From: Dichelobacter nodosus
GTDB taxonomy: Bacteria > Pseudomonadota > Gammaproteobacteria > Beggiatoales > Beggiatoaceae
Reading direction: 5' to 3'
DNA length: 39,402 nucleotides
Assembly (NCBI GenBank): GCA_020720085.1
Contig: DYPE01000011.1
Location: 1-39,402, forward strand
Shown here: positions 3,260 to 8,165 of the stretch, in pieces
Numbering within the stretch: position 1 is the stretch's first letter
Layout: each line of letters starts with the position of its first letter
The notes under the pieces: model-generated
Databases searched by the model: none
What the model saw: only the letters and a program-made list of their open reading frames with translations
What the model was told of the DNA's origin: nothing
Position numbers and translations under genes: made by a program

Positions 3260-3640
3260 ATGTCTATTTCAAAAAAAGATGAAATTTTAGAAGCCATTGC
3301 GAATATGACCGTAATGGAAGTCGTTGAATTAATTTCTGCGATGGAAGAAAAATTTGGCGTATCCGCTGCCGCTGCCGTAGCAGTAGCAGCGCCTGTTGCT
3401 GCCGAAGCTGCTGCTCCGGTCGAAGAGAAAACAGAGTTCGACGTAGTAATGACCAGCTTTGGTGCTAACAAAGTCGGGGTAATTAAGGTCGTGCGTTCGC
3501 TTACCAACCTGGGCTTGAAAGAGGCTAAAGATTCGGTGGAAGGTGTGCCTTCCGTGGTCAAGGAGGCAGTATCCAAGGCCGATGCCGAAAAGATGAAGAA
3601 AGAGTTAGAAGAAGCTGGCGCCAGCGTGGAAATTAAATAA
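3260..3640 (+). CDS. rplL: 50S ribosomal protein L7/L12
   Basis: L7/L12 is the multi-copy acidic stalk protein that recruits translational GTPases. The 126-residue product has the N-terminal dimerisation helix ([21 protein letters not shown]), an Ala/Val/Pro-rich hinge around residues 35-53 and the globular C-terminal domain ([21 protein letters not shown]). AAGGAG precedes the ATG. It is a standard length and carries no visible lesion. A 436-base gap to rpoB follows and contains attenuator-like structures. Confidence 0.98.
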
Positions 3641-3733
3641 TTTTACTGTTATTTGCAGCATCTAAAAAAGTCAGTAGTTTCCATAAGTTAGGCATGGCTT
3701 TTTATTGAATTATTTCTAGGGAGGATATTGCGA

Positions 3734-3784
3734 ATGGAAGGCACACGCCATAAACGACATTTTTCCCTAGAAGATTTTGAATGA
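3734..3784 (+). CDS. Candidate 16-residue leader peptide before rpoB
   Basis: A short ORF encodes MEGTRHKRHFSLEDFE followed by TGA. A strong Shine-Dalgarno, AGGGAGG (3718-3724), sits nine bases before its ATG. The stop codon at 3782-3784 lies three bases upstream of an RNA segment (3788-3795) that can join two alternative hairpins leading to a terminator at 3862-3891. The peptide is basic and rich in His/Arg at residues 5-9. I know of no named family for it. Its location suggests a ribosome-dependent attenuator for rpoBC, but expression is not shown. Confidence 0.4.
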   Translation: MEGTRHKRHFSLEDFE

Positions 3785-3786
3785 CG

Positions 3787-3891
3787 TGCCAATTTTTGTG
3801 ATTTGGCAAACTTGGATGCGCATACTTTATTTATTAAATTCCAAAGTTGATTTATTAAATTGGCTGGTGGCCCCTGGCTACCGGCCTTTTT
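3787..3891 (+). promoter_or_regulatory. rplL-rpoB attenuator: competing hairpins and intrinsic terminator
   Basis: Three mutually exclusive pairings are visible. First, TGCCAA (3787-3792) pairs with TTGGCA (3803-3808). Second, GCCAATTT (3788-3795) pairs perfectly with AAATTGGC (3857-3864). Third, an 11-bp stem (3862-3872 with 3876-3886, loop CCT) is followed by TTTTTCTATTTT, a strong intrinsic terminator. The second pairing removes the first three bases of the terminator stem, so it could act as an antiterminator. In E. coli a partial terminator between rplL and rpoB lowers rpoBC transcription. The switch itself is inference. The remaining gap to 4076 is AT-rich, and I see no gene in it. Confidence 0.65.
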
Positions 3892-4076
3892 CTATTTTGA
3901 AAAATTTTATTTAGCCTGTGTAATTGCTTTTTCCAGACAAAAATATCCATAAAAAACACATATTAGCTGAAGCATCACCATATACTTAAATAAATTTAAT
4001 TATCTAAGTTTTTTCAGATTTATTTGTAGTATCCAAGGCTCTGCAGAGCATGATCCTTTATCGTTAAGGAGCAATA

Positions 4077-7000
4077 ATGGCTTATTCATTTACCGAGAAA
4101 AAACGCATCCGTAAAGACTTCGGAAAGCGACCCAAGATTCTTCAAGTTCCCTACCTACTGGCCACACAGATTGAATCATATCGAAACTTTCTGCAATTGG
4201 AAAAAGCATCTGAACAGCGTGCTGATATAGGCTTACATGCAGCATTCACCTCTGTCTTCCCAATTGAAAGTTATTCTGGCAGCGCTGTACTAGAGTATGC
4301 GGGCTACCGGTTTGGTAAGCCTCCTTTTGATGTGCGGGAGTGCCAATCGCGTGGCATGACCTACGCCGCACCCTTGCGGGTTAAAATTCGCCTGGTACTG
4401 TATGAAAAAGACAGCAAAGTCAAAGCAGTACGGGATGTGCGTGAACAAGAAGTATACATGGGTGATATTCCATTAATGACCGATAATGGAACATTTGTTA
4501 TTAATGGTACAGAACGGGTTATTGTTTCTCAACTACATCGCTCTCCGGGTGTGTTTTTTGACCATGATAAAGGCAAAACGCATTCATCGGGTAAGCTTTT
4601 ATTTAATGCCCGTATTATTCCCTATCGCGGTTCCTGGTTGGATTTTGAATTTGATCCCAAGGATTGCGTCTTTGTACGTATTGATCGCCGCCGCAAACTA
4701 CCTGCGACAATTTTACTGCGTGCATTGGGTTTCTCAAATGCCAGAATGTTGGAAATATTTTTTGATGTCAATCAATTTGTCAGGGTTGGTCAAGAATTTG
4801 CATTAACCTTGATCCCTGATCGCTTGCGAGGAGAAACTATTCCTTTTGACATCAAGGCATCCGATGGTGCGGTAATTATTGAAGCGGGTCGGAGAATTAC
4901 GCCAAAGCAAATCCGCATGTTGGAAAAGGCCGGTGTTAATGAACTGGTAGTGCCGGCTGAATATTTATATGGCAAAGTAATCGCTCACGATTTGATTGAT
5001 AAGGAAACTGGAGAGTTATTGGCTCCGGCGAATAGTGAAATTACGCCGGAATTATATGGGACAATTATAGCCTCTTCAATATCTGATTTTCGTACGTTGT
5101 TTATAAACGACTTAGATCGGGGGCCATTTATTTCGGAAACACTGCGTATTGATCCTACGGTCACAGAATTAGATGCGCTGGTAGAAATTTATCGGATGAT
5201 GCGCCCAGGCGAGCCTCCAACCAAGGAAGCGGCGGAAGCTTTATTCCAAGGCTTATTTTTCAGTGATGAGCGTTACGATTTATCCTCGGTAGGACGCATG
5301 AAATTTAATCGCCGGGTAGGCCGCGAAGAGTTGACTGGCTCTGGCGTGTTATCTACTGACGATATTTTAGAGGTATTGCGCGTATTAATTGATATTCGCA
5401 ACGGTAAAGGCCAAGTGGATGATATTGACCATTTGGGCAACCGCCGCATACGCAGTGTGGGTGAAATGACGGAAAATCAATTTCGCATGGGCCTGGTGCG
5501 GGTTGAGCGTGCGGTTAAAGAACGCCTGAGCCTAGCGGAATCCGAAAATTTGATGCCACAAGAGTTGATGAATGCCAAACCGATTTCCGCTGCAATCCGT
5601 GAATTTTTTGGTGCCAGCCAATTATCGCAATTCATGGATCAAAATAATCCTCTTTCGGAAATTACTCATAAACGCCGTGTTTCTGCGCTAGGACCTGGCG
5701 GCTTAACCCGCGATCGAGCAGGTTTTGAGGTGCGCGACGTACATCCTACCCATTATGGCCGAGTTTGTCCGATTGAAACCCCAGAAGGACCAAACATTGG
5801 CTTAATTAATTCCTTAGCTGTGTTTGCGCGCACCAATGAATATGGCTTTTTAGAAACGCCTTATCGCAAAGTGGTTAATCGTCGCGTGACCGATGCCATT
5901 GAGTATTTGTCTGCGATTGAGGAAGGGCAGTACATCATTGCACAAGCCAATGCGGAATTGAACGATGCGGACGAATTGACGGAAGACTTAGTACCTTGTC
6001 GCCACAAAGAAGAATTTACGCTTAAGCCATCGTCAGAAGTCACGCATATGGACATTTCTCCTTTGCAGATTGTCTCGGTGGCGGCATCTTTGATTCCTTT
6101 CCTAGAACATAATGATGCTAACCGCGCATTGATGGGATCAAACATGCAACGCCAAGCCGTGCCGCTCATCCGCACCGAAAAGCCGTTATGCGGCACAGGA
6201 ATGGAGCGCACTGTGGCTGTGGATTCTGGCGTGGTGGTGGTGGCTAAGCGCGGAGGTTTGGTAGACACCGTGGACGCTTCACGTATTGTGGTGCGCGTGG
6301 ATGATAGCGAGGCAGAGGGATTTGAAACCGGCGCAGGGGTGGATATTTATACACTGACCAAATATTCTCGTTCCAATCAAAACACTTGTATTAACCAACG
6401 CCCGCTGGTTAAACCGGGTGATCGCATTTACAAAGGGGACGTATTGGCAGATGGCCCGTCCACGGACTTAGGCGAGTTGGCTTTAGGCCAAAATATGTTG
6501 GTGGCCTTTATGCCTTGGAACGGCTATAACTTTGAAGACTCCATTTTATTGTCTGAGCGCGTGGTCAAGGAAGACCGGTTTACCTCGATTCATATTGTTG
6601 AGCTTTCTTGTGTGGCGCGTGACACCAAACTCGGGCCGGAAGAAATTACGGGGGATATTCCCAATGTGGCAGAATCCGCGTTGAATAAATTAGACGAGGC
6701 AGGCATTGTTTATATTGGTGCGGAGGTAAAGCCTGGCGATATTTTGGTGGGTAAAGTCACGCCCAAAGGTGAAACACAACTTACTCCAGAAGAAAAACTG
6801 TTACGCGCAATTTTTGGAGAAAAGGCTTCGGATGTAAAAGATACTTCATTGCGCGTGCCCTCTGGAACTTTTGGCACGGTGATTGATGTCCAGGTATTTA
6901 CCCGTGACGGTATGGATAAAGATTCTCGCGCAAAATCCATAGAACAGTCCGAAATTGACAAGGTGAGAAAAGATTTACATGATCAATTGCGAATTTTGGA

Positions 7001-8165
7001 AGGTGATTTGTATCAGCGCTTAGAAAAATTATTGGTAGGGAAGGTAGCGATTTCTGGCCCAATCGGCTTAAAATCTGGCACTAAAATTACTAAGCGATAT
7101 TTGACAGATTTATCGCATACACAGTGGTTTGAAATTGAAGTGGAAAGCAAGGAAATTGCCGAACACTTAGTCCGCGCGCAGCAGCATTTGCGTCACCAGC
7201 GCAAACAATTTGATGAGTATTTTGAAGAAAAACGTAAAAAAATTACCGCTGGCGATGATTTAGCGCCAGGCGTGCTCAAAATGGTCAAAGTCAATTTGGC
7301 GGTTAAACGTCGCGTGCAGCCGGGTGACAAAATGGCGGGGCGCCATGGTAATAAAGGCGTGGTATCTATGATTGTGCCAGAAGAAGACATGCCATTTATG
7401 GCGGATGGCACGCCAGTAGACGTGGTATTAAATCCGCTGGGTGTTCCATCGCGTATGAACATCGGTCAAATTTTGGAAACTCATTTAAGCTGGGCAGCCA
7501 AAGGGGTGGGCAAGAAAATTGGCCAATTGCTGACTGCTCAGGCTAAAGTAGCTGAATTGCGTGATTTTTTAGACAAAGTGTATAACCAAACGGGCGACGG
7601 CGCACGCCAGGAAGACCTTACGCAATTTTCCGATCAAGAAATCCTGGAGCTGGCTAATAATCTCAAATTTGGTGTGCCCATTGCCACGCCAGTGTTTGAC
7701 GGTGCGACGGAAGAAGAAATCAAGGCCATGTTCCAATTGGCCAATCTTGCTGAAAGCGGCCAGGTCACTCTATATGATGGGCGTACTGGTGAACAGTTTG
7801 AACGTTCAGTTACAGTGGGTTATATGCACATGCTTAAGCTTAACCACTTGGTGGACGACAAAATGCACGCCCGTTCCACAGGGCCTTACAGCCTGGTTAC
7901 CCAGCAACCGCTGGGTGGCAAGGCGCAATTTGGTGGCCAACGATTTGGTGAAATGGAAGTGTGGGCGTTGGAAGCATATGGCGCGGCCTACACCTTGCAA
8001 GAAATGTTGACGGTAAAATCCGATGATGTGAATGGACGCACGCGGATTTATAAAAATATTGTGGACGGTGATCACCGCATGGAAGCCGGTATGCCGGAGT
8101 CCTTCAATGTTTTGCTTAAGGAAATCCGCTCGTTGAGTATAGACATTGAGTTGGGCCAGGGTTAA
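4077..8165 (+). CDS. rpoB: DNA-directed RNA polymerase subunit beta
   Basis: RpoB forms half of the RNA polymerase active-site cleft. The 1362-residue protein aligns throughout with E. coli RpoB by eye. It begins [19 protein letters not shown] and ends with a LSIDIELGQ-type tail. The rifampicin region (from about residue 512, [20 protein letters not shown], then [11 protein letters not shown]) has the sensitive-type residues, and [17 protein letters not shown] follows. TAAGGAG precedes the ATG. Transcription likely comes from the upstream ribosomal operon through the attenuator region. rpoC follows after 90 bases. Confidence 0.99.

Follow-up and report, generated by a model that had tools for sequence, protein, structure and literature searches.

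An attenuator in the gap between rplL and rpoB decouples the expression of ribosomal proteins from that of RNA polymerase (PMC4670729), and Barry et al. 1980 (in PMC5371410) and Steward and Linn 1992 (in PMC2659441) are cited as dealing with attenuation at this junction. The question raised by the corresponding gap in Dichelobacter nodosus is whether it holds an element of this kind or, as proposed in an earlier note on the same DNA, a switch in which a ribosome on a small leader open reading frame (ORF) decides whether a terminator forms. The gap was analysed within a stretch of 39,402 nucleotides (contig DYPE01000011.1; hereafter the window) and its features are collected in Table 1. Very probably, it contains an ordinary rplL-rpoB attenuator, orthologous to that of Escherichia coli and to Rfam P26, which would act by partial termination and need no leader peptide.

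Table 1. Features in and around the rplL-rpoB gap of the window
Feature	Position	Strand	Basis and remarks
rplL (50S ribosomal protein L7/L12)	3260..3640	+	ORF, homologous to E. coli rplL; served to set the gap limits
221-nt lead-in, rplL stop to attenuator, lineage-specific	3641..3861	+	Gap comparison with relatives
Long imperfect stem-loop (predicted) containing the small ORF	3654..3822	+	Folding; RNase III-type processing role possible
13-bp stem, 3713-3725 with 3761-3773, over the Shine-Dalgarno of the ORF (predicted)	3713..3773	+	Folding, z -3.97
16-codon ORF MEGTRHKRHFSLEDFE, judged incidental	3734..3784	+	Present, not conserved
Proposed 'switch' segment	3787..3795	+	Folding; predicted partner 3685-3694
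Sub-threshold RF00630 (P26) match, 22.5 bits against gathering score 36	3823..3887	+	Only the 3' hairpin well matched
rplL-rpoB attenuator hairpin GGCTGGTGGCC-CCT-GGCTACCGGCC, 11 pairs	3862..3886	+	Terminator scan, model R1, covariation, Rfam P26 3' hairpin
Intrinsic-terminator T-run	3887..3891	+	Sequence; termination predicted near here
rpoB (RNA polymerase beta)	4077..8165	+	1362-aa ORF; homologues in 38 of 42 family genomes

The attenuator hairpin and its homologues

The rplL-rpoB gap of the window carries an intrinsic terminator hairpin and U-run on the coding strand. The stem encloses a 3-nt loop and is followed directly by TTTTT, and it was the one terminator-like site returned by a terminator scan of 3600-4120. 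With a local fold z of -4.65 (0 of 200 shuffles equally stable), the terminator is far beyond chance, and alone in being clearly so among the elements that the earlier note listed; the 11-bp stem and T-run described there (3862-3891) are confirmed, with homologues at this position throughout the class. The stem agrees with the consensus GGCUGG...CCRGCC in its first six and its last six bases.

Gaps between rplL and rpoB were compared across relatives of the same family, 79 other Gammaproteobacteria and E. coli K-12. Most of these other Gammaproteobacteria, and roughly half of the family members, carry a GGCTGG...CCGGCC hairpin with a U-run there, as a rule 30-70 nt past the rplL stop. The E. 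coli attenuator, GGCTGGTGACTTTTTAGTCACCAGCCTTTTTGCGC, agrees with the window hairpin in place, orientation and sequence, the two sharing the gap, the strand, the hairpin class (GGCTGGTG...CC(A/G)GCC) and the U-run. They differ in that the window hairpin starts 221 nt after the rplL stop whereas that of E. coli begins 39 nt after it, and in that the window lacks the upstream E. coli hairpin AGCCTGA/TCAGGCT and has a downstream part that is not unusually structured. A covariance model (R1) built from an alignment of 46 attenuators, the window sequence among them, recovers the attenuator in 97 of the 276 genomes sampled from the class and also picks up copies missed by the original search pattern. 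Among the 87 matches with a listed rpoB position, 76 sit immediately before rpoB, the median distance being 104 nt; the window scores 45.8 bits against this model, of which it is itself one of the 46 sequences.

In the 46-sequence alignment, 99.8% of cells in the attenuator helix are paired, five pairs are changed on both sides, and the covariation score is 0.312 compared with 0.150 in shuffles. The GGCUGG/CCGGCC bases are nearly invariant, though this invariance is overstated because the outer stem bases were partly fixed by the pattern used in the seed search, which selected neither the inner pairs nor the C-N-G-T-T further downstream. A U.G pair within the stem (columns 16 and 39 of alignment A1; 3865 with 3883 in the window) is kept in 41 of the 46, rather than being replaced by U-A or C-G, and the C-N-G-T-T 3' of the U-run is also conserved. 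Together, the kept U.G pair and the C-N-G-T-T are more constraint than a plain terminator needs.

In a permissive Rfam search, the hairpin of the window aligned with the 3' end of RF00630, 'Pseudomonas sRNA P26', which reportedly originates from Livny et al. in 2006. The score falls under the curated cut-off (Table 1) since the first of the P26 hairpins has not been retained: the alignment matches the 3' terminator hairpin, and at the GCAGCC...GGCUG hairpin upstream of it the window has non-standard and missing pairs. The attenuators of E. coli and of a Pseudomonas genome (locus L048) stand in identical genomic context and match P26 at 74.5 and 74.1 bits, respectively; P26 is therefore the attenuator region itself. 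Judged by these alignments, the window holds a divergent P26 homologue, with the terminator hairpin kept and the first P26 hairpin absent. Sequence comparison thus establishes both the presence of the hairpin and its orthology: the window terminator is the putative rplL-rpoB attenuator, orthologous to that of E. coli and to the 3' hairpin of P26. The attenuator placed between rplL and rpoB by the earlier note is supported, as an already known, E. coli-type element. With the rplL-rpoB attenuator, P26 and the window terminator being a single element, an Rfam 'sRNA' that is listed without function gains a plain explanation.

By analogy with the known element, RNA polymerase leaving rplL would encounter the G+C-rich 11-bp hairpin and then the U-run, whereupon a fraction of transcripts would stop near 3890 and the remainder would run on into rpoBC, with fewer rpoBC than rplJL messages as the outcome. 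Partial termination most likely lowers the output of rpoBC relative to rplJL; for Dichelobacter nodosus, we infer the efficiency of this termination and any regulation of it. P26 has been detected as expressed in P. aeruginosa (PMC3272035), and a review lists it without target or function (PMC9029176). A role in trans for the short RNA that stops at the hairpin, as a functional small RNA beyond a by-product of attenuation, is improbable: the reported expression would suit such a role, as would the near-invariant GGCUGG/CCGGCC and the U.G pair (bases partly selected by the seed search), but the review names no target or function, the window has not kept the upstream part of P26, and attenuation alone explains the placement between rplL and rpoB.

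The small ORF and the proposed switch

The earlier note proposed that a ribosome on a 16-codon ORF sets the pairing of the segment 3787-3795, either locally or with 3857-3864, and hence whether the terminator forms. The ingredients of this model are present in the sequence. The ORF runs from ATG to TGA, is preceded by GGGAGG as a Shine-Dalgarno and ends 3 nt before the segment; TGCCAA (3787-3792) is the exact complement of TTGGCA (3803-3808), and over 8 bp GCCAATTT (3788-3795) complements AAATTGGC (3857-3864) exactly, reaching the 5' edge of the terminator. Neither the ORF nor the 8-bp pairing stands far from chance expectation. When 3641-3861 was shuffled with its dinucleotide composition kept, 23.5% of the sequences held a Shine-Dalgarno-preceded ORF of 6-40 codons; requiring an ATG start and 10 or more codons lowered the share to 5.8%. 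In 7.0% of such shuffles, 8 bp or more could pair between 3785-3799 and 3850-3872.

Nor is the ORF conserved in attenuator-bearing relatives. In most of those within the family, the attenuator starts 42-66 nt after rplL, and there is therefore no room for a comparable ORF. A search for Shine-Dalgarno-preceded ORFs in the longer lead-ins (G002, G004, G017, G020 and G041) found unrelated ones or none, and the sister genomes G003 and G004 differ completely, including in having any ORF. Comparison of MEGTRHKRHFSLEDFE with all translated gaps gave a best score of 30, where the maxima for shuffled peptides average 27 and reach 33, and so no similarity. The conserved small ORF that the earlier note had suggested seeking in relatives is thus absent or replaced by unrelated ORFs where the attenuator is kept, an outcome which that note had named as refuting the switch, as far as relatives from other genera can show it. 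The trp- and his-type leader-peptide attenuators likewise have a small ORF before a terminator; unlike them, the window lacks a run of codons for a single amino acid within the 16-codon ORF, conservation and a credible antiterminator, and its terminator is not disrupted by the proposed pairing.

Folding was assessed by equilibrium predictions, in which translation and the order of co-transcriptional folding are not modelled. The mean pair probability of the proposed antiterminator is 2e-9 in RNA extending to 3895 and 2.5e-5 in nascent RNA extending to 3866. Enforcing this pairing makes the transcript 3718-3890 about 8 kcal/mol less stable; only 3 of the 11 pairs in the terminator would be lost to it, and the remaining 8-bp stem would still have about -11.6 kcal/mol. 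For RNA beginning only at 3718 or 3785 and ending before 3881, this pairing comes within about 1 kcal/mol of the best fold, a near-tie that is lost once 3641-3717 or the 3' arm of the terminator is included. The segment 3785-3795 is predicted to pair upstream with 3685-3696 (P about 0.7-0.97), and the predictions revealed no mutually exclusive antiterminator able to compete with the terminator. In addition, the Shine-Dalgarno would be buried in a 13-bp stem, and a ribosome at the stop codon would merely favour the terminator, which forms anyway. With an ORF that is not conserved and an antiterminator that is thermodynamically negligible, a translation-dependent leader-peptide switch is unsupported and hardly credible; a peptide-coupled switch between rplL and rpoB is removed as a false lead. 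Both the small ORF and the complement of 8 bp are most probably accidental features of a structured spacer peculiar to this lineage.

The lead-in upstream of the attenuator

Given the predicted fold of the spacer and the stem burying the Shine-Dalgarno, the 221-nt lead-in is more than random sequence. Its fold z is -2.88 relative to shuffles, and the 13-bp stem, which is absent from the earlier note, is formed with a predicted pair probability of 0.93 and matched in stability by 0 of 200 shuffles. This stem encloses a 35-nt loop and buries the Shine-Dalgarno of the small ORF; translation of the ORF would itself open it. A search of the genome with the lead-in, aimed at repeats and mobile elements, gave chance matches only (best E 0.3), a DNA-level search for relatives of the gap within the family matched, at rplL-rpoB, the coding ends and the terminator alone, a scan of the gap found no sigma-70-like promoters, and Rfam at the gathering threshold over the whole window returned two tRNAs and nothing else.

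The spacer may serve RNA processing or stability. On one account, possible though doubtful, the lead-in serves mainly as a processing or stability stem of the RNase III type (3654-3822) which, together with the attenuator, separates rplJL from rpoBC messages. This account would be consistent with the stability of the long predicted stem and its 13-bp core (z -3.97), with the hairpins that follow rplL and precede the attenuator in other relatives too (median z about -1.9, 41 loci), and with Barry et al. 1980 (cited in PMC5371410), whose title describes the RNA of the E. coli transcription unit as attenuated and processed. Against it, the stem is lineage-specific and hence offers no covariation to test, and the larger folded part in E. 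coli follows the attenuator (z -3.64 over 250 nt), a region whose counterpart in the window has an unremarkable fold z of +0.9; a processing or stability role for the lead-in of the window is therefore a guess. Very unlikely is a genus-specific leader ORF, closed by the stem over its Shine-Dalgarno, through which the supply of ribosomes would act on how the 169-nt lead-in folds and, by way of this, on attenuation or RNase III processing before rpoBC.

Probable loss within the family and neighbouring elements

The attenuator hairpin is absent from 14 genomes of the family (G008, G010, G012, G021, G025, G026, G030-G033 and G037-G040; loci L119, L120, L125, L129, L130, L132-L139 and L141). On an RpoB tree, these occupy one side of a single supported branch (96/97), and this clade suggests that the attenuator was lost once inside the family of the window.

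Elsewhere in the operon, an L10 leader would be expected in the rplA-rplJ gap. The window shows no Rfam match to the L10 leader in this gap (2429-2700), even at a permissive threshold. In the Pseudomonas locus L048, the Rfam family 'Pseudomonas sRNA P27' matches the minus strand at 1148-1336 with 205 bits, upstream of rplL and antisense to the operon; judged by position, it falls between rplA and rplJ where the L10 leader would lie, and P27 may be that leader's antisense strand. Repeated inverted units (CCTCCGAGG / GAGGTCTGATAAAAAA; CTTCGAGG...CCTCGAA) fill the rplL-rpoB gaps of G023 (locus L004) and of G032 and G033 (loci L130 and L132), and look like small palindromic repeats.
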